This document shows, piece by piece, positions 5,593-24,003 of a DNA stretch of 64,000 nt. Numbering within the stretch: the stretch's first letter is position 1; each line of letters opens with the position of its first letter. Origin of the DNA: Pseudomonas chlororaphis subsp. aurantiaca (GTDB lineage Bacteria; Pseudomonadota; Gammaproteobacteria; Pseudomonadales; Pseudomonadaceae); NCBI RefSeq assembly GCF_013466605.1, contig NZ_CP059162.1:186001-250000 (forward strand). The letters run 5' to 3'. The translations under genes were made by a program, and so were the position numbers. Below the pieces are notes generated by a model that ran no database searches, was not told where the DNA came from, and saw only the letters and a program-made list of their open reading frames with translations.

Positions 5593-6375
5593 ATGCGGCG
5601 ATTTCAAGGATTGGGATTGGGATTGACCTGCCTGGTGTGCGTGGCCCAGGCGCAGACGCCTGCACCAGACGATCCCCTGCTCAATGACACTGCTGCCGGC
5701 GCCGCCGTGGCGAGCGGCAGCGAAGCGCGAGGCGTGCTGCGGGCCAAGGATCAGGCGGTATTGGCCGGCGAACTGTCCGGGCGCATCGTCGAGTTGCCCT
5801 ACAGCGAAGGCGAGTCCTTCAAGAAAGGCGACGTGCTGGCCCGCTTCGATTGCTCGGCCTACCAGGCCCAGCTCAATGCCGCTCAGGCCGCCAGCCGCGG
5901 CGCCAACGAAGAGCTGGCGCACAACCGCCAATTGGCTTCGCTCAACTCGGTCGGCCGCTTCGAAGTGGCGCGAGCCGCGGCCAAGGTCTCCGAGACCCAG
6001 GCGCAATCCCAGGTCTATCAGGTGCAGGTCAAGCGTTGCAGCGTGGTCGCACCGTTCGACGGGCAGGTGGTGGAGCGCAAGGTGAAACGCTACGAAAGCG
6101 TGACGGCCGGCTCGCCCTTGCTGGAAATCGTCGACAACCGCTCCCTGGAAATCCACCTGCTGGTGCCGTCGAGCTGGATGGGCAAGCTCAAGGCCGGGCA
6201 GACCTTCAGCTTCGTCCCCGATGAAACCGGCAAGCCGCTGGCCGCCACGGTCAAGCGCCTCGGCGCGCGGATCGACGAGGGCAGCCAGACGCTGCTGCTG
6301 GTGGCGGCCGTGCCCAACGCCGAGGGCCTGCTGGCGGGCATGAGTGGCACGGCGCGGTTCGCGGAGCTCAAATGA
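5593..6375 (+). CDS. periplasmic adaptor-like protein (HlyD/RND-MFP type), first gene of export cluster
   Basis: A 260-residue exported adaptor. It has a signal peptide (LGLTCLVCVAQAQ) and no retained transmembrane anchor, then a lipoyl/barrel-sandwich motif (LAGELSGRIVELPYSEGESF), a short coiled coil and the second lipoyl half (VVAPFDGQVVERKVKRYES), and a beta-barrel. It is shorter than a standard RND adaptor because the hairpin is short and the membrane-proximal domain is minimal. It overlaps the next gene by four bases (ATGA at 6372), so it is co-translated with another HlyD-like protein and an M50-HlyD fusion. I infer that the three build one envelope export complex. A purely efflux role is the alternative. 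Confidence 0.85.
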   Translation: MRRFQGLGLGLTCLVCVAQAQTPAPDDPLLNDTAAGAAVASGSEARGVLRAKDQAVLAGELSGRIVELPYSEGESFKKGDVLARFDCSAYQAQLNAAQAASRGANEELAHNRQLASLNSVGRFEVARAAAKVSETQAQSQVYQVQVKRCSVVAPFDGQVVERKVKRYESVTAGSPLLEIVDNRSLEIHLLVPSSWMGKLKAGQTFSFVPDETGKPLAATVKRLGARIDEGSQTLLLVAAVPNAEGLLAGMSGTARFAELK

Positions 6376-7691
6376 ACGCACCGGTAGCGGGCGCCGCCGA
6401 ACAGGTCTTCGCCCGGTTCCTCGACCTGGAGCGCCAGACCCGCGCCGCGCGCACCGTCGAGCAACTGGCCTACAGCCTGGTCAACGACGGCCAGGCGCTG
6501 TTCGGCTTTCGCCACGCGGCGCTGGTGATCGCCGGCAAGGTCCGCGCGGTGACCGGCGTCAGCGCGCTCGACCCGAATGCGCCCTTCGTGGCTTTCGTCG
6601 AACAGGCGGTGGCCCAGCTGTTCAAGCTCGAACTCGTGCAACAGGCGCGGGTGGTCGCGGCCGAGCAACTGAGCGCCCCGGTGCGGGCCGACTGGCAGAG
6701 TCTGTCGGCGGCCCAGGTGTTCTGGTTGCCGCTGATCGATCGCCAGGGCGCGGTCTTTGGTGGCCTGTGGCTGGCCCGCGACACGCCGTGGAACCCTTCC
6801 GAACAGGTGCTGCTGGCGCAACTGGGCGACACCTACAGCCACGCCTGGCTGGCATTGCAACCGCGCAAGCCGTGGCGCCTGCGCTGGAATCGAAAGCGCC
6901 GCCTGGCGCTGCTGGCGGTGGTGTTGCTGGGGCTGCTGATTCCGGTGCGGCAATCAGTGCTGGCGCCGGCCGAAGTGGTGCCGTTGGGCGGGCGCGTGGT
7001 GGCGGCGCCGCTGGACGGGGTGATCGCCGAGTTCCTGGTCAAGCCCAACCAGACGGTGAAAGCCGGCGACCTGCTGCTGCGTTTCGAAAACACCACCCTC
7101 AACGCCCAGGCCGACGTCGCCGCCCGCGCCTTGGGCGTGGCCGAGGCGGAATTGAAGACCAACTCCCAGCGGGCCTTTGCCGATGCCGAATCCAGCTCGA
7201 AGATCGACCTGCTGGCGGCCCGGGTCGAACAGAAACGCGCCGAACGCGATTACGCCCGCGAGTTGCTCAAGCGCAGCGAAGTACGGGCCGAACGTGACGG
7301 TATCGCGGTGTTCGCCGATGCCGAGCGCTGGACCGGCAAACCGGTACAGACCGGCGAGCGGCTGATGGAAATCGCCGACCCGAGCCAGGCCGAGTTGCGC
7401 ATCGAACTGGCCGTGGGCGATGCCATTGCCCTGGAGCCCGGCGCGCAGGTGGCGCTGTTTCTCGACAGCGACCCGTTGCAGCGCCATCTGGCCAGCCTCG
7501 AACGGGCGGCCTACGAAGCGCAGCCGACGCCGGGCGGACAGCTGGCCTACCGCCTCGATGCGCGTTTTCGCGACGCGCCACCGCGGATCGGTCTGCGCGG
7601 CACGGCCAAGCTCTTCGGTGAGCGCGCGCCGCTGGCGCTGTACCTGCTGCGCCGGCCCCTGGCCGGTCTGCGGCAGAGCGTGGGGTTGTAA
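6372..7691 (+). CDS. HlyD-type adaptor with N-terminal GAF-like domain
   Basis: A 439-residue inner-membrane protein with an unusual layout. Residues about 1-165 form a cytoplasmic domain resembling GAF (ends with VFWLPLIDRQGAVFGGLWLA, the typical GAF strand pattern). A transmembrane helix follows (LALLAVVLLGLLIPV, about 178-192), then a lipoyl motif (VVAAPLDGVIAEFLVKPNQ), a coiled coil (AEAELKTNSQRAFADAES) and the matching half (EVRAERDGIAVFADAERW) before a beta-barrel. The stop overlaps the following ATG by one base. The GAF-like domain could sense a cytoplasmic ligand or dock the cargo; neither is shown by sequence. Confidence 0.82.
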   Translation: MNAPVAGAAEQVFARFLDLERQTRAARTVEQLAYSLVNDGQALFGFRHAALVIAGKVRAVTGVSALDPNAPFVAFVEQAVAQLFKLELVQQARVVAAEQLSAPVRADWQSLSAAQVFWLPLIDRQGAVFGGLWLARDTPWNPSEQVLLAQLGDTYSHAWLALQPRKPWRLRWNRKRRLALLAVVLLGLLIPVRQSVLAPAEVVPLGGRVVAAPLDGVIAEFLVKPNQTVKAGDLLLRFENTTLNAQADVAARALGVAEAELKTNSQRAFADAESSSKIDLLAARVEQKRAERDYARELLKRSEVRAERDGIAVFADAERWTGKPVQTGERLMEIADPSQAELRIELAVGDAIALEPGAQVALFLDSDPLQRHLASLERAAYEAQPTPGGQLAYRLDARFRDAPPRIGLRGTAKLFGERAPLALYLLRRPLAGLRQSVGL

Positions 7692-9787
7692 TGAACCTGC
7701 CGGGCCTGCGTGCGGACTTGCAGCTGTCGGCAGCGGCGCCGGCGCTGGATGGTTCGCCGCGCTGGACCCTGGCCGATCCGGTGCGCGGCCGTTATTTCAA
7801 GCTCGGAGCGGCGGCGATGCGCTTGCTCAGGCACTGGTCCCTGGGGGACGCCGGGCAGGTGCTGCACGCCGCCAACCGCGAACCGGGGCTGCCTCTGGGC
7901 GGCGCGGAGCTGGAAGAATTGCTGGGCTTTTTGCGCAGTCATGACCTGATCACCGCCCTCGATCCGCAACAGCGCGCCAGCTATGACCTCAAGGCCGCCG
8001 CGCAGCACCAGAGCCTCTGGCAGGTGCTGCTGCACCAATACCTGTTCTTTCGTATCCCGCTGTGGCGCCCGGACGCCTTTCTCAATCGCGCCTGGCCGTG
8101 GCTGGCGCGATTCGGGTCGGGGCTGCTGCGTTACGGCTTGCCCCTGACCCTGGGGCTGGGCGTGTTCCTGGTATCGCGGGACTGGCAGCGCTTCCTGGCG
8201 ACCTTCCCCCACCTGTTCAGCCTCGGCGGCGCCCTGGCGTTTGGCGTGGCGCTGTTCTTCGCCAAGCTGTGCCATGAGTTCGGCCACGCCTTCATGGCCA
8301 AGCGTGCCGGCTGCCGGGTACAGAGCATGGGGGTGGCGTTCATGGTGCTGCTGCCGATGTTCTACACCGACGTCAGCGATGCCTGGCGAGTCAACGATCG
8401 TCGCGCGCGCTTGCTGATCGGCGCCGGTGGCGTACTGGCCGAGCTGCTGCTGGCCAGCATCGCCCTGCTGGCCTGGTCGCTGCTGCCGGACGGCCCGGCG
8501 CGCACCGCGGCTTTCATGCTCGCCAGCGCGACCTGGATCACCACCCTGGTGATCAACCTGAACCCTTTCATGCGCTTCGATGGCTACTTTCTGCTCAGCG
8601 ACTTCTGGGAGGTGGACAATCTCCAGGGGCGGGCCTTCGCCCTCTGTCGCTGGCGCCTGCGCGAGGCCTTGTTCGGCTACCGGCAGCCCGCGCCGGAACC
8701 CTGGTCGCCGGCCATGCAGCGGCGTCTGCTGTGGTGGGGTTATGGCTCGTGGCTGTGGCGCGCGGTGCTGTTTTTCGGGATTGCGCTGGCGGTGTACCAC
8801 CTGTTTTTCAAGCTGCTGGGCATCTTCCTGATGCTGGTGGAACTGGTGTGGTTCATCTTCTTGCCCATCGTGCGCGAATGGCGCGAATGGTGGACGCGCC
8901 GCGAGCAGGCCGATGCGCCGCGGGTGTTGCTCAGCAGCCTGGGGCTGGTGGCGGCGCTGTTGCTGGTGGCGGTGCCCTGGCGCAGTTCGGTGGAGGTGCC
9001 GGCGATGCTTGAGGCCGGGCGTGCCAGCGCCTTGCATGCGCCGGTGGCGGCGCGGGTCCGGCAGGTCAATGTCAGCGACGGTCAGGCGGTGAGCAAGGGC
9101 CAGGTACTGGTGGAACTCGAGTCCCCGGACCTGGCGTCGCGCCAAGCCATCGCGCGCCGGGAAATCGAGATCCAGCAACTGCAGATGCGCCGCCGCGCCG
9201 GGCGCAGCGAGACCGCGGCCGACGCCGGGATTGTCGAGCAGCAGCTGGCCGAGGCGGTGGCCGAGTACCGCGGCCTGTCGGCGCAACGCGAGCGTTTGCT
9301 GCTGCGGGCGCCTGAGGCTGGCCAGTTGCGTGACCTGCTGCCGCAACTGCAGGTGGGCCGCTGGGTATCGTCCAAGGATCCGCTGGCCCGGGTGGTCGAG
9401 CCGGGGGCGCGCTTGCGCGGTTTTCTGGCCGAGGCCGAACTATGGCGAGTCGCGCCGGGCGCCACGGGGCGCTTTATCGCCGACGACCCGATGCATCCGG
9501 CGCTCGAGGTGCAACTGACCGAAGTCGACACCAACGGCGTGGCTTATATCGACCAGGAGGCGCTGACTTCCGATCACCATGGGCCGATTGCCGTGCGCCG
9601 CGATGAAAACCGCCGCGCCGAACCGGTCCAGGCGCAGTACGGCGCGCGGCTCAAGGTGCTCGACACCAGCGTCACCCCGAGCCAGCCGCTGCGCGGCGTG
9701 GTGGTGTTGCAGGGGCGTGGCGAGTCGCTGCTGGGCACGGCCTGGCGGCGTCTGGCGGCGCTCGGCGTGAGGGAAAGCGGGTTCTGA
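7691..9787 (+). CDS. M50 (site-2-type) membrane zinc protease fused to HlyD-like adaptor domain
   Basis: A 698-residue multi-spanning fusion. The first 100 residues resemble a PqqD-like winged-helix domain. The membrane part carries the M50 zinc motif HEFGH at residues 195-199 and the third ligand in LNPFMRFDG (Asp about 297), both intact, among several hydrophobic helices. The C-terminal third is periplasmic and HlyD-like: lipoyl half-motif (ALHAPVAARVRQVNVSDGQ), coiled coil (EIEIQQLQMRRRAG) and second half (LLLRAPEAGQLRD). Similar M50/biotinyl-lipoyl fusions occur with peptide or protein exporters. Here it is encoded with two other adaptors and, 10 kb on, a TolC homologue, while no ABC ATPase is present. 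I infer a role in processing or exporting the giant repeat protein. Confidence 0.88.
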   Translation: MNLPGLRADLQLSAAAPALDGSPRWTLADPVRGRYFKLGAAAMRLLRHWSLGDAGQVLHAANREPGLPLGGAELEELLGFLRSHDLITALDPQQRASYDLKAAAQHQSLWQVLLHQYLFFRIPLWRPDAFLNRAWPWLARFGSGLLRYGLPLTLGLGVFLVSRDWQRFLATFPHLFSLGGALAFGVALFFAKLCHEFGHAFMAKRAGCRVQSMGVAFMVLLPMFYTDVSDAWRVNDRRARLLIGAGGVLAELLLASIALLAWSLLPDGPARTAAFMLASATWITTLVINLNPFMRFDGYFLLSDFWEVDNLQGRAFALCRWRLREALFGYRQPAPEPWSPAMQRRLLWWGYGSWLWRAVLFFGIALAVYHLFFKLLGIFLMLVELVWFIFLPIVREWREWWTRREQADAPRVLLSSLGLVAALLLVAVPWRSSVEVPAMLEAGRASALHAPVAARVRQVNVSDGQAVSKGQVLVELESPDLASRQAIARREIEIQQLQMRRRAGRSETAADAGIVEQQLAEAVAEYRGLSAQRERLLLRAPEAGQLRDLLPQLQVGRWVSSKDPLARVVEPGARLRGFLAEAELWRVAPGATGRFIADDPMHPALEVQLTEVDTNGVAYIDQEALTSDHHGPIAVRRDENRRAEPVQAQYGARLKVLDTSVTPSQPLRGVVVLQGRGESLLGTAWRRLAALGVRESGF

Positions 9788-9835
9788 GACAAGGAATGTT
9801 CAGGGAGAGCGCATATGTTGCATAAGGATTCAGCC

Positions 9836-10318
9836 ATGTCCGATGGCCTGGTGGTACGTCCGTCGCGGCCCACCGACGGACCGTTCCTGCAAAGCCTTTA
9901 CCGTTCGGCGCGCAGCGATCTGCAATGGATCGACGGCGAACAGGAGCAGATCGAGCAGGTGATCGCCCAGCAGTTCCAGGTCCAGGAGCAGGGCGCGGGG
10001 GAGAATTTCCCCGGCGCCATGCAGTACGTGATCGAAAAACTCGGCAGCGCCATCGGTGCCTTGACCACCGATTTCGGCCCCAATGAAATCCGCGTGCTGT
10101 ACCTGGCGTTCATTCCCGCTGCCCGCGGTCGCGGCTATGGGCGCACCGTGCTGCGGGGTGTGCAGAAGGCCGCCGAGCAGGTGCGTTGCCCGGTGGCCAC
10201 GGTGGTCTGGGCCAGCAACCCCCATGCGCGCCGGCATTACCTGGCGCTGGGGTTTCAGGTCGAGGAAGCCAACCCGGCGGCCGAGCGGCTGGTGTGGTAT
10301 CCCGGTCCGCGCGGCTGA
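9836..10318 (+). CDS. GNAT-family N-acetyltransferase
   Basis: A 160-residue acetyltransferase of the GNAT fold. The acetyl-CoA-binding motif A is seen as LAFIPAARGRGYGRTVL (R/Q-x-x-G-x-G/A form RGRGYG), followed by a motif-B-like region ASNPHARRHYLALGFQ. The substrate cannot be read from the sequence; small molecule or protein amino groups are equally possible. It lies 49 bp after the M50-HlyD fusion in the same direction and may be the last gene of that operon. An ATG at 9815 with its own GGGAG ribosome site is an alternative start that adds seven residues. Confidence 0.85.
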   Translation: MSDGLVVRPSRPTDGPFLQSLYRSARSDLQWIDGEQEQIEQVIAQQFQVQEQGAGENFPGAMQYVIEKLGSAIGALTTDFGPNEIRVLYLAFIPAARGRGYGRTVLRGVQKAAEQVRCPVATVVWASNPHARRHYLALGFQVEEANPAAERLVWYPGPRG

Positions 10319-10371: not shown

Positions 10372-10378
10372 GCCCGGT

Positions 10379-10690
10379 TCAGTTGAAGGCGATATAGAAA
10401 TAACCCAGCGTCGGGTCGCGGCCCAGGGCCGGCACCCGCGACACGAACATGTCTTGCAGATGGCCGACGCCGGGCAGCTCCAGGTCGCACAGGCCGTCGA
10501 CGAACTCTGTCGGCTCCAGGCTGTTGAGTTCGACGCAGAAGGGCATGCGCGCGCTGTTCGGCATGCGGGCCTGGGGGGTGTCCTTGATGGACTCTATATG
10601 GACCGGCAAGACGCTGCCGTCCGGTAGCAACAGGTTGCAGGTTTGCCCCAGCAGAGGCTGGAAATGCTCACTTTGCAGCAGATGCAGCAT
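10379..10690 (-). CDS. small DUF6916-like protein next to phage-tail-collar gene
   Basis: A 103-residue protein beginning with LLQSEHFQPLLGQTCNLLL and containing PFCVELNSLEPTEF. It resembles the small beta-rich DUF6916-type proteins that accompany MdpB-like tail-collar genes in many environmental bacteria; this is from memory and moderately certain. It has no signal peptide or membrane segment and no catalytic motif. It is downstream of the tail-collar gene on the same strand, with a terminator-like hairpin in the 53-bp gap, so it is likely expressed below that gene. Confidence 0.65.
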   Translation of the reverse strand: MLHLLQSEHFQPLLGQTCNLLLPDGSVLPVHIESIKDTPQARMPNSARMPFCVELNSLEPTEFVDGLCDLELPGVGHLQDMFVSRVPALGRDPTLGYFYIAFN

Positions 10691-10743: not shown

Positions 10744-11331
10744 TCAATTGCGCGATGGGAACAGGCCGTTCAGGGCCACGCTGAAGTTGATCACCAGGAA
10801 CGGGTTCATCACCGGCAGCGGCAGCCCGTTGCCGGCGGGCGAGATGGTGCCGGTGATCGTGGTACTGACCCCCTGGAGCGGCACGGGCGTGGTGCCTTGC
10901 TTGTCGGAGTAGATGGTGGCGGTGCCCGGCCCGCCGCCGGAGGTGCCGATGAACGAGTTGGTGGCCGTCGGGGTACTGGCCGGGTTGCTGGCGGGGTTGG
11001 CCAGCTGCAGCGTGGTGGCGGCGCTCAGGCTGGCGAGGGTATGGGTGTGGGCAGGCAGGTTGTTGAGGGTGGGGGTGACGTTTTCGGTGCCGGAAACCTC
11101 GCCGATTACCCGGGGCGTCAGGCCCAGCCCGTTGCCCTGGCCGATGGGCAGGCGCCCTTGCAGGTTCGGCAGCTGGAAGTTGGTGGTGCCGTTGCCGCCG
11201 TAGTAGGTGCCCAGCAGCGAAAACAGCGCCTGGTACTGCGAGATCCCTAGGGTCTGGCCGTAACACGAGGCCCAGCCGTTGGGAGGGAAGTTAAAGGAAA
11301 AAGCTTGAATGGTGCCCATGAACACTTCCAT
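10744..11331 (-). CDS. phage tail collar-domain protein (MdpB-like)
   Basis: A 195-residue protein with the tail-collar domain. The N-terminus MEVFMGTIQAFSFNFPPNGW followed by CYGQTLGISQYQALFSLLG and YGGNGTTNFQLPNLQGR is the classic collar signature, and AHTHT at about residue 94 fits the His-rich stretch of fibre proteins. The family includes proteins first named microcystin-dependent protein and is common outside phages. No other phage structural genes occur here, so this is an orphan or domesticated copy. An AAGGA site supports the chosen ATG. It is transcribed away from the decayed glycosyltransferase. Role here unknown. Confidence 0.85.
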   Translation of the reverse strand: MEVFMGTIQAFSFNFPPNGWASCYGQTLGISQYQALFSLLGTYYGGNGTTNFQLPNLQGRLPIGQGNGLGLTPRVIGEVSGTENVTPTLNNLPAHTHTLASLSAATTLQLANPASNPASTPTATNSFIGTSGGGPGTATIYSDKQGTTPVPLQGVSTTITGTISPAGNGLPLPVMNPFLVINFSVALNGLFPSRN

Positions 11332-11553
11332 AGTTTTTTATCCTTCAGGTTAATCAGTGAAACTCCCTGAGCCGATCCCTGGTGTCTGGCCTGACAGCTT
11401 GACCGATACGGTCAGAACGCCAAGCGGGCTCATTGACCGCAGTGGTTAGCGTAGACGCTGTTCCGCCAGTCGCCCGAGGTGATGGGGTGCCTTATGTCTG
11501 GCCGGATAAACAGCGATGCTGTGCTGGCAAAACGCGGGTGCAGGGGACGATTC

Positions 11554-12255
11554 ATGGCGTTTCGCAGAGAGCCGCAATGGCTGGATACGGCCGAGCCGGG
11601 CATCACCCATCGGCTGACGAGCGACGCCCAGCGCCTGATCGCGCTGCTGCGGGCGTACTGGCTGCTGCCGATCCTGCTGCTGGCGGTGGCCACCCGTTTC
11701 TATGACCTGACCGCCGCGCCATCTGGGGCGATGAAGCCTCCAGCCTGCTGCCCACCGCCATGCGCTACAGCCAGGAAGTGCGCATGTATGCGTTGTTGGG
11801 AGTGTGGCTGCTCGGCCACCCTGGCCCTGGTGTACTGGGTCAGGCAGCCTCGGCGTCGGCGCTACCTGGTGTATTACACGCTACTGATGAGCGCGGCGTT
11901 CTACACCCACTATTTCACCGCGCTCTGCGTGCTTGCCCATTGGTTGTACCTGTTGCTGCTGCGCCTGCAAGCAACGCTCCAGAGCCGGGCGATCAACCGG
12001 TCGGGCTGGTGGCTGGCCAATGCTGCCATCGTCATGTTGTTCGCCCCCTGGCTGCCGGGACTGGTGGACCTGCTGCAACACATCGACCAGCTGAAAGCCA
12101 GCGGCGACGTGGGCTGGGAGCCGTCGGTGGACCTTTCCTCGCTGCCCTCGATGGTCTGGCAACTGCTGATCCAGGGCGATGGCGAAACCCGTTCTCCGCT
12201 GCTGTTCGCGAGCCTGCCGCTGCTGGTGCTGGGCGTCGGCGGAAATGCTGGGTAG
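11554..12255 (+). pseudogene. decayed GT39-type glycosyltransferase (dolichyl-phosphate-mannose transferase-like)
   Basis: Remnant of a multi-spanning GT39-type glycosyltransferase. From 11554 the frame reads through a first helix (YWLLPILLLAVATRFYDL). The expected catalytic-loop sequence IWGDEASSLL then appears in another frame (about 11721-11750). That frame continues directly into RYSQEVRMYALL, so roughly 90 residues normally lying between are missing. The original frame resumes near 11815 (ATLALVYWV) and continues through LLMSAAFYTHYFTALCVLAH to a stop at 12255, well short of the family's usual 450-550 residues. Two frameshifts, an internal deletion and a lost C-terminus make it non-functional as a GT39 enzyme. 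Once it may have glycosylated a product of the neighbouring export cluster. Confidence 0.8.
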
Positions 12256-12508: not shown

Positions 12509-13354
12509 GTGAAGGGATTGCCGCAGTTCCACTTTATCTCCGGTTTACCGCGCTCAGGGTCGACCCTGCTGTCCGCCATTCTGTTGCAGAACCCGCGCTT
12601 TCACGCCGGCATGACCAGCCCGGTGGGCGCGCTGTTCAGCGGCATCCTCGAACAATGCAGCGCCGGCAGCGAATTCGGCGCGGTCATCGATATCGACATG
12701 CGCCGCCGCTTGCTGCGCGGGCTGTTCGACTCCTACTACGCCGACAAGGCCGACAAACCGGTCATCTTCGACACCAACCGCCAGTGGTGCGCGCGCCTGC
12801 CGGCCTTGAAGGACCTGTTCCCCAAGGCCAGGACCATTGCCTGCGTGCGCAATGTCGCCTGGGTCATGGACAGCCTGGAACGGCTGTACCGGGCCAACCC
12901 CTTCGAAAACACCAAGCTGTTCGGCGATGCGGTCGAGCGCAATTCGGTCTACAGCCGCTGTGAAACCCTGGCCCAGCACAACCGCCTGGTGGGTTACGCC
13001 TGGACGGCCTTGAAAGAGGCCTATTACGGCGAAAACGCCGATTCGATGCTGATCGTCGACTACGACCTGCTGAGCCAGGCTCCGGAGCGGGTGATGCGGC
13101 TGATCTACGACTTTATCGGCGAACCCTGGTTCGAACACGATTTCGACAGCCTGGCCTACGACGCGCCCGAGTTCGACCAGGCGCTGGGGGTCGCGGGCCT
13201 GCACAAGGTCAAGGCGCGGGTGGCGCTGCAGTCGCGGCGCACCATCCTGCCGCCGGACCTGTTCGAGAAGTATGCGGAGTTGTCCTTCTGGAAAGACGGG
13301 GCATCCAGCGCCGCCAATGTCATTCGCATGAAATCCGACGCCGCGGTCCGTTGA
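12509..13354 (+). CDS. sulfotransferase family protein
   Basis: A 281-residue PAPS-dependent sulfotransferase. The 5'-phosphosulfate-binding loop is FISGLPRSGSTLLS at residues 9-22 and the 3'-phosphate-binding region is ACVRNVAWVMDSLERLY; YDLLSQAPERVMRLIYDFIG is the usual C-terminal helix pair. The best start is a GTG at 12509, since in-frame stops lie just upstream, and its ribosome site is weak. It is 43 bp upstream of the giant DUF4347 gene, on the same strand, with an APS kinase and a second sulfotransferase downstream. I infer that it sulfates the giant protein or something attached to it; small-molecule sulfation is the alternative. Confidence 0.85.
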   Translation: MKGLPQFHFISGLPRSGSTLLSAILLQNPRFHAGMTSPVGALFSGILEQCSAGSEFGAVIDIDMRRRLLRGLFDSYYADKADKPVIFDTNRQWCARLPALKDLFPKARTIACVRNVAWVMDSLERLYRANPFENTKLFGDAVERNSVYSRCETLAQHNRLVGYAWTALKEAYYGENADSMLIVDYDLLSQAPERVMRLIYDFIGEPWFEHDFDSLAYDAPEFDQALGVAGLHKVKARVALQSRRTILPPDLFEKYAELSFWKDGASSAANVIRMKSDAAVR

Positions 13355-16300: not shown

Positions 16301-19300
16301 GAGCAGCAGCGATGGCGGTATTACCTGGATCGCCACCTTCACCCCGACCTCGAGCATCACCGATACCACTAACGTCATTACCTTGAACAACAGCGGCGTG
16401 ACCAACGCTTCCGGCAACGCCGGCAGCGGCACCACCGACTCCAACAACTACGCGATCGATACCGTACGGCCGACCGCGACCATCGTGGTCGCGGACAACG
16501 CCTTGCGAGTCGGTGAAACTTCGCTGGTGACCATCACCTTCAGCGAAGCGGTCAGCGGTTTCACCAACGCCGACCTGACCGTCGCCAACGGCACCCTGAC
16601 CGCGGTGAGCAGCAGCGACGGTGGCGTCACCTGGACCGCGACCTTCACTCCGAGCGCCAGCATCAGCGACAGCAGCAACCTGATCACCCTGAATAACACC
16701 GGCATCGCCGACCAGGCCGGCAACGCCGGCAGCGGCACCACCGATTCCAACAATTACGCGATCGATACGGTGCGGCCGATCGCGACTATCGTGGTCGCCG
16801 ACAGTGCTCTCAGCGCCGGTGAAACCTCGTTGGTGACCATTACCTTCAGCGAGGCGGTCAGCGGCTTCACCAACGCCGACCTGACCATCGCCAACGGCAC
16901 GCTGACCGCAGTGAGCAGCAGCGACGGCGGCATCACCTGGACCGCCACCTTCACTCCGACCGTCGGTATCGCCGATGCCAGCAACCTGATCACCCTGAAC
17001 AACACCGGGATCAGCGACCTGGCCGGCAACACCGGCAGCGGCACCACCAACTCCAACAACTACAGCATCGAAACCGTGGTGCCGACCGCGACCATAGTGG
17101 TCGCCGACAACGCCTTGAAGGTCGGTGAAACCTCACTGGTGACCATCACCTTCAGCGAAGCGGTCAGCGGTTTCAGCAATGCCGACCTGACCGTGGCCAA
17201 CGGCACGTTGAGCGCGGTCAGCAGCAGCGACGGCGGCATCACCTGGACCGCCACCTTCACCCCGACGTCGAGCATCACTGACACCAGCAACGTCATCACC
17301 CTGGATAACAGCGGGGTGACCAACGCCTCGGGCAATGCCGGCAGCGGCACCACCGATTCCAACAACTACGCCATCGATACTATTCGTCCGAGCGCGACTA
17401 TTGTGGTCGCCGACAGCGCCCTGGGCGTGGGCCAGACCAGTACCGTGACCATCACCTTCAGCGAGGCGGTGACCGGTTTCACCCTGGCCGACCTGACCGT
17501 GGCCAACGGTGTGCTGAGCGGCTTGAGCACCAGCGACAACATCACCTACACGGCGACCTTTACTCCGGCCGCCGGCATCACCGACAACAGCAACCTGATC
17601 ACCCTGGACAACACCGGGATGACGGATGGGGCGGGCAATACCGGCAGCGGCACCACCGACTCCAACAACTACGCCATCGACAGCCAACGTCCGACTGCCA
17701 CCATCGTCCTCTCCGACTCGACCCTCAAGGCCGGCGAAACCTCGGTGGTGACCATCACCTTCAGTGAAGCAGTGACCGGTTTCGACAACAGCGACCTGAC
17801 GGTGGCCAACGGTACCCTGAGCGCGGTGAGCAGCAGCAATGGCGGCATCACCTGGACCGCCACCTTCACCCCGACAGCCGGCATCACCGACCTGAGCAAC
17901 CTCATCACCCTGAACAACACCGGCACCACCGACGTGGCCGGCAACAGCGGTACCGGGACCACCAACTCAGCCAACTACAGCATCGAAACCGTGGTGCCGA
18001 CCGCCACCATCGTGATCGCCGACACGGCCTTGAAGGCCGGCGAAACCTCGCTGGTGACCATTACCTTCAGCGAGGCGGTCAGTGGTTTCGACAACAGCGA
18101 CCTGAGCATCGCCAACGGCACCTTGAGTGCGGTCAGCAGCAGCGACGGCGGTGTCACCTGGATCGCCACTTTCACCCCGACAGTCGGTATCACCGATACC
18201 AGCAACGTCATCACCCTGAACAACAGCGGCGTGATCAATGTCTCGGGGAATACGGGCAGCGGCACCACCGACTCGAACAACTACGTCATCGACACGGCTC
18301 GCCCAACCGCGACCATAGTGGTAGCCAACCCGATCCTGCCGATCGGCGAAACCAGCCTGGTGACCATCACCTTCAGCGAGGCGGTCAGCGGTTTCGACAA
18401 CAGCGACCTGACGGTGAGCAACGGCACCCTGAGCGCGGTCAGCAGCAGCGACGGCGGCATCACCTGGACCGCGACCTTCACCCCGAACGTCAACGTCAGC
18501 GACGCCACCAACCTGATCACCCTCAACAACAGCGGGGTCAGTGACGCGGCGGGCAACGCCGGCAGCGGCAGCACCGACTCGAACAACTTCATCATCGACA
18601 CCGGGCGGCCGACCGCCACCATCGTGCTGGCCGACACTGCCCTGAAGGCGGGCGAAACCACCACTGTGACCATCACCTTCAGCGAAGCGATCAGCGGCTT
18701 CACCAACTCGGACCTGACGGTGGCCAACGGTACCCTGGGGGCGCTGAGCAGCAGCGATGGCGGGGTTACCTGGACCGCCACCTTTACCCCGGCCATCAAC
18801 ATCAGCGACAGCAGCAATCAGATCACCCTGAACAACGCCGGAGTGATAGACGCCGTCGGCAACACCGGCAGCGGCACCACCGACTCGGCCAACTACGTCA
18901 TCGATACCCTGCGCCCCACCGCTACCGTGGTGGTCGCCAACCCGATGCTGGCCGTGGGCGACACGTCCCTGGTGACCATCACCTTCAGCAAGGCGGTCAG
19001 CGGTTTCGACAACAGCGACCTGACGGTGGCCACCGGCACGCTCAGCGCGCTGAGCAGCAGCGATGGCGGCATTACCTGGACCGCGACCTTCACGCCGAAC
19101 ACCGACGTCAGCGATACGACCAACCTGATCACGCTCAATGGCAGTGGCGTGACGGACGCCTCGGGCAATACCGGGCTGGGCAGCACGGATTCGAACAATT
19201 ACCTGATCGACACCCAGCGGCCGACGGCGACCATCGTGGTCGCCAACGGCAGCCTCGGCGTGGGCCAGACCAGCAGCGTGACCATCACCTTCAGCGAAGC

Positions 19301-20087
19301 GGTGAGCGGTTTCACCAACTCGGACCTGACGGTGGCCAACGGCACCTTGAGTGCCCTGAGCAGCAGCGACGGCGGCCGGACCTGGACCGCGACCCTGACG
19401 CCAACCGCCAACATCAGCGATACCAGCAACCTGATCACCCTGAACAACAGCGGGGTGAGCGACGCATTCGGCAATACCGGCACTGGCAGCACCGACTCCA
19501 ACAACTACGCGATCAACACCGTGCCGGCGGCCAACCCAGCCACGGAGCTGCCGGTGGGCGATCCGGAATTCCGCTCGAGCGACCCGGTGGTTCCGCCGCT
19601 GCCGCCTTATGTGCCGCTGCAGCCCACCATCACCACGTCACCAGTTGGCGACCTGGGCTCGCCATTGGCCTTCGCGCCGCTGTTCGAGCAGCGGGTGCTC
19701 GGCGATGGCATCCGGCCGTTGGGGGATATTTTTGTCAATAACGGCGCCCTGGCGCCGAGCTTCATTGCCCAGGTATTCGGCAGCAGCGATGCCGGTGGCG
19801 ACGGTAATGGCCATGGGTTCCTCGGCTTCGGTGGCGGCGATGGCGGGGTGTTCAGCCAAAGCACGCTGTCGGTGCTGTTCGGCCAGGACTCCACTGAGGA
19901 CGGCGGTTCGCTGAAGCCCTTCGGCGACAAGTCCAGGGCCGGCGATCTTTCCCAGGGTGGGCGCGGGGTGTTCGGGGCACCGTCGCTGACCCAGCAACTG
20001 CAAGTGATGCAAGACACGGAGCAACGGCCGATCCGCGATTTGGCCAAGGCGTTCGAACAGGCCGGCATCAGCGCAATGCAGGCCTGA
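13398..20087 (+). CDS. giant LEPR-motif/DUF4347 repeat protein, probable exported adhesin
   Basis: A 2229-residue protein. Layout: a Lys/Arg-rich start without Sec signal; the LEPRMLFDGA motif at 32-41 (LEPR-XLL type, frequent at the N-terminus of giant exported repeat proteins); a DUF4347 domain at about 93-250 with IIAHGNAGDLWLG (His150) and ILIYGCYTAEGERG (Cys193); a parallel-beta-helix-like region from 257 that starts SLRAALASAQNGDIVTF and turns into very Gly-rich stretches; fourteen about 102-residue Ig-like repeats (617-2042); and a Pro/Gly-rich tail with no RTX nonapeptides. It is flanked by a sulfotransferase and by TolC, APS kinase, hydroxylase and sulfotransferase genes. I infer a surface or secreted adhesin that is post-translationally modified. 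Its export route is not shown. Confidence 0.85.
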   Translation: MSIMWWSKGKSRVNQRATGRANALASPMIMPLEPRMLFDGAVAATVAEAVQPDSPTTTDVAKTPTAADQPSVSKDTHGQADAAPAAAPTAVPGLTVVFVDSRVKDADSLLQGLAPGTRVVQLGANQDGLQQIADYLDQHQGVSSVQIIAHGNAGDLWLGNSYLSADNVQARSSVLADIGQDMNAGGDILIYGCYTAEGERGLSFVDSLAQLTGRDVAASSDRTGVGGDWELEIATGNIESANVLSTQAMQDYQWGLATWTATNNADTGVGSLRAALASAQNGDIVTFSSGMTVQLTSELLVNKNVTIDGDLNNDGAADVILDGQYRTRVIEVSAGSTVTLDGLVITRGLVSGNGGNGGYGATGAMAGGIFNAGNLTLNNVTVTSNAASGGGGGGGVTSAFYGGGGGGGGGLGGQGGGHGGSAGPGTGTLGGQAGGGGVGGYGGGYDATHMGGRGGTSTGGAGGLGVSYYSNGGNGATATNGTISIGGGGGGAGWDKVGGAGGNAAGGIYNASSGTITVIGTSTISNNIGAGGGGGGGGGQGSNASNGGIGGRGVGAVWNKGTFLITAANFAALSGNAAASGAGGVALGGGSTGTSPTSVATIYNDGGTLNTAYAPPPTATIVVADTTLSIGETSLVTITFSEAVTGFTNADLTIANGTLTAVSSSDGGITWTATFTPTSSITDTSNVITLDNTGVINGLGTAGVGTTTSNNYVVDTVRPTATIVVADNALRVGETSLVTITFSEAVSGFTNADLTIANGTLTAVSSSDGGITWTGTFTPSASISDTTNLITLDNTGIADQAGNAGSGTTDSNNYAIDTVRPTATIVVADSALTAGETSLVTITFSEAVSGFTNADLTIANGTLTTVSSSDGGITWTATFTPTVGIADASNLITLNNTGVTDVAGNTGSGTTNSNNYAIDTVLPTATIVVADNALRIGETSLVTITFSEAVSGFDNSDLTVANGTLSAVSSSDGGITWIATFTPTSSITDTTNVITLNNSGVTNASGNAGSGTTDSNNYAIDTVRPTATIVVADNALRVGETSLVTITFSEAVSGFTNADLTVANGTLTAVSSSDGGVTWTATFTPSASISDSSNLITLNNTGIADQAGNAGSGTTDSNNYAIDTVRPIATIVVADSALSAGETSLVTITFSEAVSGFTNADLTIANGTLTAVSSSDGGITWTATFTPTVGIADASNLITLNNTGISDLAGNTGSGTTNSNNYSIETVVPTATIVVADNALKVGETSLVTITFSEAVSGFSNADLTVANGTLSAVSSSDGGITWTATFTPTSSITDTSNVITLDNSGVTNASGNAGSGTTDSNNYAIDTIRPSATIVVADSALGVGQTSTVTITFSEAVTGFTLADLTVANGVLSGLSTSDNITYTATFTPAAGITDNSNLITLDNTGMTDGAGNTGSGTTDSNNYAIDSQRPTATIVLSDSTLKAGETSVVTITFSEAVTGFDNSDLTVANGTLSAVSSSNGGITWTATFTPTAGITDLSNLITLNNTGTTDVAGNSGTGTTNSANYSIETVVPTATIVIADTALKAGETSLVTITFSEAVSGFDNSDLSIANGTLSAVSSSDGGVTWIATFTPTVGITDTSNVITLNNSGVINVSGNTGSGTTDSNNYVIDTARPTATIVVANPILPIGETSLVTITFSEAVSGFDNSDLTVSNGTLSAVSSSDGGITWTATFTPNVNVSDATNLITLNNSGVSDAAGNAGSGSTDSNNFIIDTGRPTATIVLADTALKAGETTTVTITFSEAISGFTNSDLTVANGTLGALSSSDGGVTWTATFTPAINISDSSNQITLNNAGVIDAVGNTGSGTTDSANYVIDTLRPTATVVVANPMLAVGDTSLVTITFSKAVSGFDNSDLTVATGTLSALSSSDGGITWTATFTPNTDVSDTTNLITLNGSGVTDASGNTGLGSTDSNNYLIDTQRPTATIVVANGSLGVGQTSSVTITFSEAVSGFTNSDLTVANGTLSALSSSDGGRTWTATLTPTANISDTSNLITLNNSGVSDAFGNTGTGSTDSNNYAINTVPAANPATELPVGDPEFRSSDPVVPPLPPYVPLQPTITTSPVGDLGSPLAFAPLFEQRVLGDGIRPLGDIFVNNGALAPSFIAQVFGSSDAGGDGNGHGFLGFGGGDGGVFSQSTLSVLFGQDSTEDGGSLKPFGDKSRAGDLSQGGRGVFGAPSLTQQLQVMQDTEQRPIRDLAKAFEQAGISAMQA
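15246..19523 (+). repeat. 14 tandem 306-bp coding repeats (Ig-like domains)
   Basis: Fourteen in-frame units, each starting near P-T-A-T-I-V-V and containing TFSEAVSGF, SSSDGGITWTATFTP and TDSNNY. All are 306 bp except unit 8 (303 bp, STSDNITYT replacing the SSSDGGITW form) and unit 14, which lacks its last residue. Units 2-4 (15552-16469) and 5-7 (16470-17387) correspond one to one, and 8-10 (17388-18302) keep part of the same order. Only units 3, 6 and 9 have TTNS where others have TTDS or STDS (TTTS in unit 1). This indicates amplification in blocks of three. It is protein-coding and not CRISPR. Confidence 0.95.
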
Positions 20088-20131
20088 AAATAATACATAA
20101 ATACGATGCGGCACCCAGGGGCGAGACGAGG

Positions 20132-21646
20132 ATGAATAAAAGTCAGAAGTTGTTTGGGGTCAGCTTGTTGGCGCTGATGGTCAGCGGTTGTGCCGTCAGC
20201 AGTAAACCGATTGAACGCAGTGTCAGCGAGCAGCGCGCCAGGAGCGACCTGCAGAGCATGTACAAGGACCAGGAACCGCTGAGCGGCCCGCTGACCCTGC
20301 ACCAGGCCATGGCCCGGGCAGTGAAATACAACCTCGAAGGCCGGTTGAAAATCATGGAAGAGGCCCTGGCCAAGCGCCAACTGGACCTCGCCAGTTTCGA
20401 CATGCTGCCGCGCATGGCCCTCTCCGCCGGCTACGTGGGGCGCAACAACGTCAGCGCCTCCAGCAGCCAGAGTGTGGAGACCGGTACCCAGTCCCTGGAA
20501 CCATCGACCTCCCAGGACCGGGACCGCAGAGTGGCCGACCTGACCATGGTCTGGAACGTCCTGGACTTCGGCGTCAGCTACATCAACGCCAAGCAGCAGG
20601 GCGACCAGCGGCTGATCGTCCAGGAACGCCGGCGCAAGGTGATCAACACCATCGTCCAGGACGTGCGCTCGGCCTATTGGCGGGCGGTGGCGGCCGAACG
20701 CCTGCTCAAGCAGATCGACAGCCTCGCGGGCCGGGTCGAGCAGGCCCGCAGCAACAGCCAGAGCATGAGCCAGCAACGCATCGGCGACCCGGTGCAGGCC
20801 CTGGCTTACCAGCGCTCGCTGATCGAGGCCACGCGCCAGCTGGAGGAGCAGCGCCGGGCGTTGTCCCTGGCCAAGACCGAGCTGGCGACCCTGATCAACC
20901 TGCCCATGGGCACTAACCTGACCCTGGCGACCACCGACGATTACCCGGTGCCGGAACTCAAGGTCGATATGTCCCGCCTCGAACACGAGGCCCTGACCAG
21001 TCGCCCGGAACTGCGCGAGCAGGATTACCAGAGCCGCATCAGCGCTGCGGAAACCCGCAAGGCCATGCTGCGCCTGCTGCCGGGCCTGGAGTTCTCCGCT
21101 GGCGGGCACTACGACAGCAACTCGTTCCTGGTCAACGACAAGTGGGCCGACTACGGGGTGAAGGTCACCTGGAACCTGTTCAATGTGCTCTCCGCGCCGG
21201 CGGCCATCGACACCGCCAAGGCCGGTGAAGACGTCGCCGCGGCGCGCCGGCAGGCCATGTCGATTGCCGTATTGGCCCAGGTCTATGTGGCCAACGCCAA
21301 CTACCGCGACGCGCTGCGCCAGTTCAAGACCAGCCAGGAACTGGCGGACATCGACGGGCAGATCGTCGGCCAGCTGCGCAACCGCTACCAGGCCAACGGC
21401 ATCGGCGAGCTGGACCTGATCCAGGGCGAGCTGAACACCTTGCAGGCGGACCTGCGGCGCGACCTGGCCTATGCCGACCTGCGCAACGCCTACGGGCAGA
21501 TCTTCGCCAGTGCCGGGCTCGACCCGCTGCCCAACGAGGTGCAATCGACCCAGGTGCAGTCCATCGCCTCGGCGCTGGCCAGCCGCGAGGCCGACTGGGC
21601 GGCGGGCAACATCAGCACGCCGGTGGCCCATGCCCAAAGACAATAA
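20132..21646 (+). CDS. TolC-family outer-membrane lipoprotein channel
   Basis: A 504-residue outer-membrane factor. A lipoprotein signal (LLALMVSGC, Cys about 20) is followed by two efflux-protein repeats with long amphipathic helices (LIEATRQLEEQRRALSLAK; TSRPELREQDYQSRISAAE) and a beta-strand pair (GLEFSAGGHYDSNSF). It resembles TolC partners of protein exporters and not the NodT drug-efflux type, lacking the VGPDY start and GGGW end. It begins 45 bp after the giant protein gene, so it is the likely channel for that protein. Its 3' end overlaps the APS kinase gene by 17 bp. Confidence 0.88.
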   Translation: MNKSQKLFGVSLLALMVSGCAVSSKPIERSVSEQRARSDLQSMYKDQEPLSGPLTLHQAMARAVKYNLEGRLKIMEEALAKRQLDLASFDMLPRMALSAGYVGRNNVSASSSQSVETGTQSLEPSTSQDRDRRVADLTMVWNVLDFGVSYINAKQQGDQRLIVQERRRKVINTIVQDVRSAYWRAVAAERLLKQIDSLAGRVEQARSNSQSMSQQRIGDPVQALAYQRSLIEATRQLEEQRRALSLAKTELATLINLPMGTNLTLATTDDYPVPELKVDMSRLEHEALTSRPELREQDYQSRISAAETRKAMLRLLPGLEFSAGGHYDSNSFLVNDKWADYGVKVTWNLFNVLSAPAAIDTAKAGEDVAAARRQAMSIAVLAQVYVANANYRDALRQFKTSQELADIDGQIVGQLRNRYQANGIGELDLIQGELNTLQADLRRDLAYADLRNAYGQIFASAGLDPLPNEVQSTQVQSIASALASREADWAAGNISTPVAHAQRQ

Positions 21647-22232
21647 CCTGCAGGCGCCCCAGGCCAGCGTCAGCCGAGCCCAGCGCGAGGCGCGCAACGG
21701 TCATCGTGGGGTGGCGATCCTGCTGACCGGCCTGCCGGCGGCGGGCAAGTCGACCCTGGCCCAGGCGCTGCAGGCCGGGCTGTTCCAGCACGGCCGGCAG
21801 AGCCTGGTGCTGGACGGCGATGCCTTGCGCGGCGGCCTGAACCGCGACCTGGGGTTCGCCGAGGCCGACCGCCGGGAAAACATCCGCCGCGCCAGCGAGC
21901 TGGCGGCCTTGCTGGTGGACAACGGGCAGATCGTGATCCTGGCGATGATCGCCCCGCTGATCGAGCAGCGCGAACTGTTCGCCCGGCGCCTGGGCGAGGA
22001 CTACCTGGAAGTCTGGTGCAGCGCTTCGCTGGCGGTCTGTGAACAGCGCGACCCCAAGGGCCACTACGCCCGCGCCCGCAGCGGCGAGTTGCCGGGGTTC
22101 ACCGGTATCTCGGCGCCCTACGAGCCGCCACGGGCCGCGCTGGAACTGGACACCGGCACCCAGTCGATCGAAGACTGCCAGCGGCAATTGCTCGGCTGGC
22201 TGGTCGAGCGCAAGGTGCTGCCTGCCTCATGA
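21630..22232 (+). CDS. cysC: adenylylsulfate (APS) kinase
   Basis: A 200-residue stand-alone APS kinase making PAPS from APS and ATP. The Walker A loop is GLPAAGKST, followed by LDGDALRGGLNRDLGF, the family REN motif (DRRENIRRASELA), and a C-terminal FTGISAPYEPP substrate region. The Pro/Ala at GLPAAGKST differ slightly from the usual GLSGSGKS but keep the P-loop. The ATG at 21630 overlaps the TolC gene by 17 bp, and its stop overlaps the hydroxylase start by 4 bp. Assimilatory sulfate reduction genes are absent, so local PAPS supply for the two neighbouring sulfotransferases is the best explanation. Confidence 0.92.
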   Translation: MPKDNNLQAPQASVSRAQREARNGHRGVAILLTGLPAAGKSTLAQALQAGLFQHGRQSLVLDGDALRGGLNRDLGFAEADRRENIRRASELAALLVDNGQIVILAMIAPLIEQRELFARRLGEDYLEVWCSASLAVCEQRDPKGHYARARSGELPGFTGISAPYEPPRAALELDTGTQSIEDCQRQLLGWLVERKVLPAS

Positions 22233-23020
22233 GCCGTCCGGCGTTCGCCCGGCTGCCGGTCAGCGTGGATCTGCCGCAGCTGTTGCGCGCCCTGGCGCGA
22301 ATCGACGCGAGCGCCTGGCAGGGCCACTTCAACGGCGGCTACTACGAGGGCGACTGGAGCGGCGTGGCCTTGATCTCGGCGGTTGACGCGCCCTCCGAGC
22401 TGGCGCCGGGCAAGGGCCAACCGGTGCCGCGCGAACCCTGGCGCCAGGACCCGGACTGGCAACAGGCATTGCGCCACCTGCCCTTGCGGATCGTCTCGGC
22501 GCGCCTGCTGCGGCTGGGTCCGGGGGCGCGGATCCATGAGCACCGCGACTACGACCTGGGCGGCCCGGACGCCGACCTGCGCCTGCATATCCCCTTGCTC
22601 AGTCCGCCGCGGGTGGACTTCCTGCTCGACGGGCAGCGCATGCCGATGCTGGCGGGGGAGTGCTGGTTTCTCGACCTGTCGCGCCCGCACCGTGTGGACA
22701 ATCACGACAGCGAGCAACGCATTCACCTGGTGATCGATTGTCGCCCCGATTCCTGGCTGGAGCAGATGATTGCCGAGGGTGTGCCGACTACGCCGACGCC
22801 TGGCCTGGGCCGCGCCGCCGTGGACTTCGCGCGGTTTTGTCGGTTGCTCGAAGAGGACCCCGCGCTGTGCCAGGTCTTGCAGACGCTGACCGACAGCGAA
22901 GCCTTTATCGAGCGCGCCCTGGTCCTGGCGGCGGAGCGCGGCCTGGCGTTCACCCGCGAAGACCTGCGTTCGGCCATGCGCCAGGGGCGGCGTCTGTGGA
23001 ATGAACAATGGACGGCCTGA
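22229..23020 (+). CDS. aspartyl/asparaginyl beta-hydroxylase with C-terminal Nif11-like domain
   Basis: A 263-residue Fe(II)/2-oxoglutarate oxygenase. The iron ligands appear as HRD at 105-107 within RIHEHRDYDL and His154 in RPHRVDN; Arg164 in QRIHLVID fits the 2-oxoglutarate-binding Arg. The family hydroxylates Asp or Asn side chains in proteins. After a linker, residues about 197-252 (DFARFCRLLEEDPALCQVL ... AAERGLAFTREDLRSAM) match the shape of a Nif11 domain, otherwise known as a peptide leader or recognition domain in RiPP precursors. Start overlaps the APS kinase stop by 4 bp, and its end overlaps the next gene by 13 bp. The giant protein, rich in Asp and Asn, is the obvious candidate substrate. 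Confidence 0.87.
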   Translation: MSRPAFARLPVSVDLPQLLRALARIDASAWQGHFNGGYYEGDWSGVALISAVDAPSELAPGKGQPVPREPWRQDPDWQQALRHLPLRIVSARLLRLGPGARIHEHRDYDLGGPDADLRLHIPLLSPPRVDFLLDGQRMPMLAGECWFLDLSRPHRVDNHDSEQRIHLVIDCRPDSWLEQMIAEGVPTTPTPGLGRAAVDFARFCRLLEEDPALCQVLQTLTDSEAFIERALVLAAERGLAFTREDLRSAMRQGRRLWNEQWTA

Positions 23021-24003
23021 ACCTGCACGGCTGGTTGCCGATCCGCCTCTGGCAGCCGCGTGACGAGTGGCGCGTCGACTGGTGCTGGTTCGGCGACAGG
23101 CCGCTGTCGCAGCCGTTTTTCCGCGAAGCGGTCGAAGAGGCCCTGCGCCTGCCGTTCAATCAGGCGTTCCGGCGCCAGACGTCGTTGTCTGCCCTGACTG
23201 AATGGCGCCAACGTAGCCCGGGCCTGGTTCCCAGTGCCTTTATCTTCCACGCCTCGCGCTGCGGTTCGACCCTGGTCAGCCAGATGCTGGCCTGCCTGGA
23301 CGAGCATATCGTGGTGTCCGAACCGCCGCCGTTGGATGCCTTGCTACGCAGTTCGCTGGCGCCACAGGAGCGGGCTGCCGCGCTTGTGGGCTTGTTGTCG
23401 GCCTATGGGCAGGCGCGCCGCGGCACTGAGCAGCGGCTGGTGATCAAGCTCGATGCCTGGAACATCGGCGAACTGCCGCTGCTGCGCCAGTGCTTTGCCG
23501 ATACGCCGTGGCTGTTCCTGTATCGCGACCCGCTGGAAATCGCCGTGTCGCATCTGCGCCGCGCCGGCATGCACATGACGCCGGGCCTGATCGGGCCTAG
23601 CGCTTTGGACGACGGTGAACCTTTCCAGGACCGGGAAAGCTGGATCGCCCGGCGTCTGGGGCGCTTGTTGCAGCTGGGGCTGGAGCACTGCCGCGAACAC
23701 CATGGCCTGGTGCTGAACTACAGCGAGCTGCCCGCCGCCATGGACAGCCATCTGGGCGATTTTTTCGGCCTGAGCGCCGAGCAACGCCGGGCGGCATTCG
23801 CCTGTGTCGGCCAGCATGCCAAGCAGCCGGCCCAGGTCTTTGTCGATGACCGCCAGGGCAAGCGGCAACAGGCTTCAGCGCGATTGCGGGAGCAGCTGGA
23901 GCAATGGGCGCAGGCGCCTTACGCGGCGCTGGAGCAGTGGCGCAGCTGCGCGGTTCCGCAACCCCGGTTCAGTTTTTCGGCGACAACTCCGCCATGCCCT
24001 TGA
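23008..24003 (+). CDS. second sulfotransferase family protein
   Basis: A 331-residue sulfotransferase-like protein. The phosphosulfate-binding loop is [17 protein letters not shown] (about 78-94) and a 3'-phosphate region is seen as [19 protein letters not shown]. It carries an extra N-terminal domain of about 75 residues ([20 protein letters not shown]) before the nucleotide loop. It overlaps the hydroxylase gene by 13 bp in another frame, so co-expression is certain if the operon is transcribed. It differs clearly from the 12509 sulfotransferase, which suggests two acceptors or two steps. Its 3' end overlaps the convergent slipin gene by 35 bp. Confidence 0.83.

Follow-up and report, generated by a model that had tools for sequence, protein, structure and literature searches.

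The genomic context of a gene encoding a giant 2229-residue protein was analyzed in Pseudomonas chlororaphis subsp. aurantiaca, whose genome is a single contig of 6.95 Mb (NZ_CP059162.1). Positions are coordinates in the window, i.e., the whole 64,000-nucleotide stretch of DNA analyzed, which spans 186001-250000 of that contig. Genes were called from open reading frames (ORFs) together with Pfam/NCBIfam profile matches, and these agree on identity and position with every gene named in an earlier sequence-only reading, which had proposed that an exporter group and a modification group serve the giant protein. That reading had overlooked the GNAT, DUF6916, tail-collar and glycosyltransferase-remnant features between the two groups. 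The locus is organized as follows:

5593-6375, + strand: HlyD1, a short periplasmic adaptor of the HlyD/RND type (Pfam HlyD_3, 73 bits), signal-peptide-like at its N-terminus by eye
6372-7691, + strand: HlyD2, an adaptor with an additional cytoplasmic-looking N-terminal domain of ~170 residues (HlyD_3, 57.7 bits)
7691-9787, + strand: M50-HlyD, a fusion of a recognition-element-like N-terminus, an M50 intramembrane metalloprotease and a C-terminal HlyD barrel (Pfam M50, HlyD_3)
7697-7951, + strand: domain of M50-HlyD resembling the recognition element (RRE) of ribosomally synthesized and post-translationally modified peptide (RiPP) systems (PqqD-like), the proposed leader binder
9815-10318, + strand: GNAT acetyltransferase of the collar module (Acetyltransf_1, 34.6 bits; clustered in 17 genomes among the 75 blocks fetched)
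10379-10690, - strand: DUF6916 protein of the collar module (Pfam DUF6916, 35.3 bits), adjoining collar genes in relatives
10744-11331, - strand: phage-tail-collar-domain protein (PF07484, 89.4 bits) with the C-terminus ...GLFPSRN
11479-12255, + strand: remnant of a PMT_2-type glycosyltransferase gene (230 bits to a 528-residue protein of the relative G147)
12509-13354, + strand: sulfotransferase 1, ST1 (Sulfotransfer_3, 62.4 bits)
13398-20087, + strand: giant 2229-residue cargo protein (DUF4347, 178 bits; 14 Big_12 stretches)
13491-13520, + strand: putative LEPR leader motif LEPRMLFDGA, giant residues 32-41
13683-14159, + strand: DUF4347 domain of the giant, with a Tce1/CHAT-like cysteine-protease fold
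14562-14861, + strand: Gly-rich core of the giant, residues 389-488, 53% Gly, with recurrent Tyr, within a segment that is beta-helix-like by eye
15261-19488 (approximate limits), + strand: tandem Big_12 Ig-like repeats of ~102 residues each (14 matched stretches, 1717 bits)
20132-21646, + strand: TolC/NodT-type outer-membrane factor (OEP, 142 bits), lipobox-like at its start by eye
21630-22232, + strand: adenosine phosphosulfate (APS) kinase for supply of phosphoadenosine phosphosulfate (PAPS) (APS_kinase, 171.5 bits)
22229-23020, + strand: Asp/Asn beta-hydroxylase, AspHyd (Asp_Arg_Hydrox, PF05118, 55.5 bits, cut-off 22.6), with a C-terminal Nif11 domain (26.8 bits)
23008-24003, + strand: sulfotransferase 2, ST2 (weak Sulfotransfer_3 match, 23.8 bits, below the cut-off of 27)

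HlyD1, HlyD2 and M50-HlyD overlap end to end, and the overlapping gene ends noticed earlier are real, measuring 4, 1, 17, 4 and 13 bases across the locus. In relatives, HlyD1 is kept beside HlyD2 and M50-HlyD, and the TolC-type orthologue adjoins the giant. A Pfam scan of the HlyD2 N-terminal domain gave zero matches at E<=1, so its 'GAF-like' label is by eye only. The APS kinase ORF is listed from 21471; 21630, the start chosen in this analysis, is the most likely one.

Co-occurrence was surveyed in 194 genomes of the order (DUF4347 found in 41), in 149 Pseudomonas genomes, and at the best 80 of 565 M50-HlyD loci of named genomes, which cover several proteobacterial classes and Nitrospira records; the named and genus sets overlap in part (e.g., L157 is G214 and L180 is G200). 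At 32 of the 51 DUF4347 loci scored in the order set, a LEPR motif in the giant is accompanied by an M50-HlyD gene within 25 kb, 14 loci have neither, and none has M50-HlyD in range without the motif. The remaining five carry the motif with M50-HlyD out of range, four at contig edges and one at 29 kb, and all their genomes encode M50-HlyD. Left out of the count were a 350-residue G065 fragment and, for one G026 ORF that matches DUF4347 twice, the second match. Some genomes of the 14 motif-less loci carry M50-HlyD elsewhere, and G164, counted among them, has LEKRIVFDA, which the regular expression missed, with its M50-HlyD on another contig. By eye, motif-less DUF4347 giants begin with Sec-like signals or directly with DUF4347. 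The earlier idea that exporter genes and giant belong together is thus supported for LEPR giants (32 of 37 within 25 kb), whereas the idea that DUF4347 calls for the exporter did not hold. None of the 14 non-LEPR DUF4347 giants lies within 25 kb of M50-HlyD, and G065 and G043 have a LEPR-type giant at the M50 locus with no DUF4347 match there, which rules out DUF4347 as the exporter's recognition mark.

At the named loci, a LEPR-type ORF was recovered by the strict pattern in 45 of 80 and, with LE[QP]RIAFDAA, in five more; the other 30 include 20 with a neighbouring ORF of at least 490 residues whose start is cut off, eight with no giant in view, and two exceptions, L187 and L192. The leader also varies with the M50 subfamily. 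Its eighth residue is Asp at 26/26 loci with an M50 reaching 204-1557 bits against the window M50 and Ser at 13/13 loci scoring 115-178 bits, a split (39/39) for which the score cut was set after the scores were seen and five giants at contig edges were matched to an M50 from another part of their genome. Asp is likewise found in G043 and in the 51 named giants scored. Coevolution of leader and reader would be expected to give such a match, and the LEPR N-terminus behaves, judged from these sequence patterns, as the leader of the M50-HlyD system. As to the LEPR label itself, the motif given above is plain, whereas the profile LEPR-XLL (NF012209) gives 12.7 bits against a cut-off of 17.

The candidate reader, which is up to 87% identical to the M50-HlyD of named Pseudomonas, carries HEFGH at residues 195-199. 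Across 20 homologues H195, E196, H199, N289, P292 and D297 are invariant, and F296 and G298 occur in at least 90%, which gives both HExxH and the distal N-x-x-P-x-x-x-F-D-G motif of M50 intramembrane metalloproteases. The match to NCBIfam NF041824 (daptide HExxH M50) reaches 151 bits, below the cut-off of 300. The N-terminus models as an RRE, a leader-binding fold, and a Pfam PqqD match is present in 4 of 19 cases.

We propose that the LEPR segment near the N-terminus of the giant would be a leader peptide bound by the RRE-like domain, which we consider likely, and that the M50 intramembrane protease probably removes it. Several points weigh against this proposal. Foldseek returns the RRE match at E 3.3e-3 at best; the VIA-align rows re-examine Foldseek matches and nothing else, and families absent from these rows may also fit. 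At L187 and L192, M50 loci hold a giant or a DUF4347 protein with no visible leader. Maximal hydropathy is 0.74-1.62 in LEPR N-termini (n=8) and 1.46-3.01 in the others (n=7), and hydropathy was dropped as a Sec test, since the two groups overlap. Finally, related genomes in all these counts are not independent of one another, so that the Fisher values make them look more certain than they are.

The DUF4347 domain, which lies just after the leader, has a Tce1/CHAT-like (clan CD) cysteine-protease fold with His and Cys invariant in 39 homologues. As a putative peptidase, it may process the giant after export.

For the export itself, M50-HlyD, HlyD2 and HlyD1 would dock to the TolC-type factor and carry the giant out, a route we consider fairly likely. 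In line with type I secretion, HlyD-type adaptors and a TolC-type factor are encoded with the substrate; a dedicated ATP-binding cassette (ABC) transporter encoded alongside was not found by a pattern search (Walker A plus LSGG) of the exporter gene run, and an unlinked transporter is possible. The 80 named loci hold 24 ORFs with Walker A and an LSGG-type signature, none of them located between adaptor genes and M50. The nearest, RecF/SMC-like by eye, starts ~125 bases after M50 in L194; most lie ~7-11 kb upstream in Pseudomonas and the rest are scattered, as are 13 in the order blocks. The search for ABC genes was by pattern only, and MFS and RND genes were not searched systematically. RTX repeats are absent from the last 400 residues of 27/27 complete LEPR giants, where other C-terminal signals are possible.

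That no energizer was found in the cluster would fit a different division of labor: M50-HlyD serves for processing and anchoring alone, and Sec, or an ABC transporter from another place in the genome as in type I secretion, takes the giant across the inner membrane. Tripartite systems have an energized inner-membrane transporter, according to the accessible part of PMC8277102, and a Vibrio LEPR-XLL giant has C-terminal RTX and serralysin domains in the part of PMC10868602 available, which means that some LEPR proteins do have type I-like ends. Both the failure to find an energizer by pattern and this Vibrio protein also count against export through the adaptors as drawn here. Speaking against the alternative, LEPR N-termini are unlike Sec signals by eye, yet their hydropathy overlaps, and none of the 27 complete giants has the RTX end. 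We regard this alternative as possible but doubtful.

C-terminal features of the giants were also noted by eye. Giants with an Asp-type leader often have [FL]xxQL 15-45 residues before the stop (L004, L045, L048, L049, L051, L060, L064, L067 and the window giant at 19974-20084; e.g., SLTQQLQ, NFNEQLQ, GFRAQLR), a possible second export or anchoring signal. Giants with a Ser-type leader (L017, L027, L029, L036, L088) end in a hydrophobic stretch and a charged tail, which suggests membrane retention; their clusters have no TolC relative in view and often contain c2-family genes, PAS/sensor-like by eye.

Turning to the modification genes, strong matches to ST2 and AspHyd occur in an identical set of 39 of the 149 genus genomes. 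In 34 of these, the distance from ST2 is at most 15 kb to DUF4347 and at most 20 kb to a collar gene; in the other five, ST2 is on another contig. Scored by place, ST2 is present at 34 of 52 DUF4347 places with a collar gene versus 0 of 26 without; for these 78 places, the collar list holds the stronger matches among those listed, with the second G233 piece and three matches below 27 bits left out. ST1 stands without a collar at three places, including G061.

The C-terminus of the collar protein follows the hydroxylase. A collar of the locus ends in RN in 39/39 hydroxylase-positive genus genomes versus 3/17 negative ones, a count based on 56 genomes out of the 75 in the genus that have a PF07484 match; the other 19, among the matches listed, with larger open frames or E near 1e-4, were left out, and the pattern missed part of the collars in G253 and G243. 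In otherwise close clusters in which the hydroxylase is missing, the collar ends in RG (G214/L157, L160), RD (L163), HD (G197) or RS (G292). Among named genomes, RN is found in 15/15 with AspHyd versus 1/8 without (L180); L181 ends in PN. A tree of 44 M50 proteins requires six changes of the AspHyd label, at least five of them forced by well-supported branches, and without three long rows it requires five, all forced. Four of the five hydroxylase-free branches have only non-Asn ends, and the fifth is mixed (L172 and L174 RD; L180 RN). Outside the genus, collars end in RN at the AspHyd loci G006-C3 (three collars), G049, G094 and G170. Collar residues before the last three show no clear split between hydroxylase-positive and -negative sets.

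The simplest reading of these patterns is that the hydroxylase would act on the C-terminal Asn of the adjacent collar protein, to which we give an even chance. In this reading ST2, which always accompanies the hydroxylase, may use PAPS from the APS kinase to sulfate the hydroxyl so formed, a step we rate as somewhat less likely than not. Not all collars fit: RN also occurs in the hydroxylase-negative G304 and G200 and in one of three G305 collars, and terminal Asn alone is found in 4/17 negatives (G269 ends in HN). If both sulfotransferases and the hydroxylase instead modified the giant, the collar would be a bystander; all these genes are co-located with the giant, ST1 is directly upstream of it, and every one of the 39 hydroxylase/ST2 genomes carries DUF4347. 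What makes this unlikely is the absence of ST2 from the 26 collar-free DUF4347 places, where ST1 is found at three (among the collar matches listed), the different last collar residue where the hydroxylase is missing, and the cluster of ST2, hydroxylase and collar in G006, which lies beside a giant with a signal-peptide-like start and no DUF4347 match there. Because the hydroxylase/ST2 pair follows the collar and its terminal Asn, some of the enzymes probably have a target other than the giant.

ST1, by comparison, follows the giant. Orthologues above 400 bits occur in 40 of the 149 genus genomes, in all 40 within 2 kb of a DUF4347 gene; strong orthologues in the order set (>250 bits) number 10 of 194 genomes, 7 immediately upstream of the DUF4347 gene. 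Of the ORFs in 75 blocks, the five most Gly-rich (Gly fraction 0.46-0.54 over 100 residues) all adjoin ST1, and two of them are not DUF4347 proteins. In the genus and family, a Gly-rich stretch (>=0.42) is present in 23/23 giants beside ST1 and in 0/10 window-like giants without it (<=0.24), one of which, G283, has an ST1-like gene of 47% identity 37 kb from the giant. The named set gives 25/25 with ST1 (>=0.41) versus 0/20 without (<=0.31), with some giants cut. The sequence-only view that the modification genes belong with the giant fits ST1, while the hydroxylase/ST2 pair more likely serves the collar. The neighbourhood check that it had suggested, now run, indicates that the exporter goes with LEPR and that clusters can lack the modification genes (ST1 in 40, hydroxylase/ST2 in 39 and DUF4347 in 70 of 149).

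We hypothesize that ST1 would sulfate the Gly-rich segment of the giant, probably on tyrosines; the choice of this segment is evenly balanced. Among 45 Gly-rich segments only three Tyr columns are above 75% conserved, and no Tyr sulfation site is claimed for this reason. In G057, G006, G098 and G173, ST1 orthologues lie upstream of DUF4347 giants that lack the Gly-rich stretch (0.20-0.24), so ST1 may read something else, and G079 has ST1 with no adjoining giant; these cases count against the proposed target. Glycans or a small molecule, in place of protein side chains, appear to be quite improbable targets of the sulfotransferases. A PMT_2-type gene, full length in 22 ORFs, that adjoins the collar and ST1 genes of many Pseudomonas and a weak NoeE match of ST1 (27.6 bits) would fit glycans; the PMT_2 gene is a remnant here while ST1 and ST2 are open, and G061 has ST1 with neither a collar nor a PMT_2-type gene in its block. 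Proteins with a Hint-like domain (by eye), related to each other, occur beside ST1 in L103 (G079) and near the collar gene in L117 (G130).

The modification enzymes form two sub-modules, ST1 with the Gly-rich segment of the giant and the hydroxylase/ST2 pair with the collar. Groups of collar, GNAT and giant without the exporter are found in G043-C20, G136, G178 and G132, with DUF6916 in the first two. Another locus with no M50-HlyD, L114 (G006:C3), combines a giant with a signal-peptide-like start, a DUF6916-cluster gene, three collars ending in SRN, ST2-like and AspHyd-like genes and a GNAT; the modification cassette can thus stand alone. The APS kinase is optional, with matches in 12 of the 20 clusters fetched from the genus (L127 stops short of its place), and three further strong APS kinase matches in this genome make the cluster copy an extra PAPS supply, not the sole one. 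At the place of the remnant, many relatives carry a full-length PMT_2-type glycosyltransferase (523-615 residues, 22 ORFs, some from the same genomes; PMT_2 39 bits in G147), and 11479-12255 represents gene decay in this genome.

The grouping of the genes is not due to chance, being kept in relatives across families and despite rearrangement: L140 and L141 have a changed gene order and retain matches to HlyD2, M50, TolC, giant, ST1, ST2, AspHyd, collar, GNAT and APS kinase (in L140, HlyD1 is not in view and the kinase match lies in two short ORFs). That a drug-efflux-type adaptor set lies beside an unrelated adhesin by chance is extremely improbable, for although HlyD and TolC families are common and the window has a separate HlyD/outer-membrane-factor pair at 16-2504, leader, subfamily and exporter co-segregate across the order and in named genomes of several proteobacterial classes and Nitrospira, and the counts contradict chance.

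Gene content, co-segregation, fold matches and invariant catalytic-type residues were obtained directly. Taken as a whole, leader-guided export of a giant surface protein combined with a modification cassette is the probable reading of the locus, and the core idea of the sequence-only reading, that export and modification centre on the giant, is broadly supported. The stronger proposal of a secretion system of its own kind, in which the leader would be read and cleaved and the giant exported via HlyD/TolC without an ABC transporter, with a sulfated hydroxy-Asn collar cap and an ST1-decorated Gly-rich segment, is possible but rather unlikely. No description of a system with this gene combination was found among the matches listed in the literature searched, with preprints and most subscription papers outside its scope.

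Individual components resemble known systems. The Rax system of Xanthomonas has an ABC peptidase, RaxB, in whose stead M50-HlyD is found here, and the cluster as read contains neither an ABC peptidase exporter nor a RaxX-like gene, with peptides of <90 residues outside the search. Both systems link a sulfotransferase to type I-like export; RaxST sulfates a 60-residue peptide precursor, according to the parts of PMC4216712 and PMC6637879 at hand, whereas here there are giant and collar proteins, two sulfotransferases and a hydroxylase. SiiE-type type I secretion of Salmonella (accessible part of PMC5466336) likewise couples a giant Ig-like-repeat protein to HlyD-type adaptors and a TolC-type factor; in contrast, the locus described here has three adaptors, one with RRE-like and M50 domains, an N-terminal leader, no RTX repeats near the C-terminus, and no ABC transporter found in the cluster by pattern search. 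Tce1 (PA0256), a DUF4347 type VI effector, is a 310-residue cargo of the type VI secretion system in the portions of PMC13323088 and PMC8262886 available, whereas in the present locus a giant protein carries the domain behind a leader.

RiPP M50 proteases and RREs (NF041824, PqqD) share with the window protein an RRE-like N-terminal domain and M50 in one chain; the latter is below the NF041824 cut-off and fused to an HlyD adaptor, and its cargo has thousands of residues and is not a peptide. The LEPR-XLL family (NF012209, LEPR-8K) has an LExRxLL-type motif near the N-terminus of giants, of which the window copy is a sub-threshold example. To our knowledge, LEPR-XLL has no assigned function. 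If correct, our reading would give a testable job to LEPR-XLL and DUF4347, families named by motif or number only, and would link RiPP-style leader recognition to the export of proteins thousands of residues long; an exporter working without an ABC transporter would be a new bacterial secretion route. From the terminal-Asn correlation follows a prediction for one small protein, a shift of +16 Da at its C-terminal residue followed by one of +80 Da.

Elsewhere in the window, a separate HlyD adaptor (16-1038, + strand) and a NodT-type outer-membrane factor (1035-2504, + strand) apparently belong to a multidrug pump. A similar pump set, seen beside none of the exporters of distant relatives, lies directly upstream of the exporter in L153.

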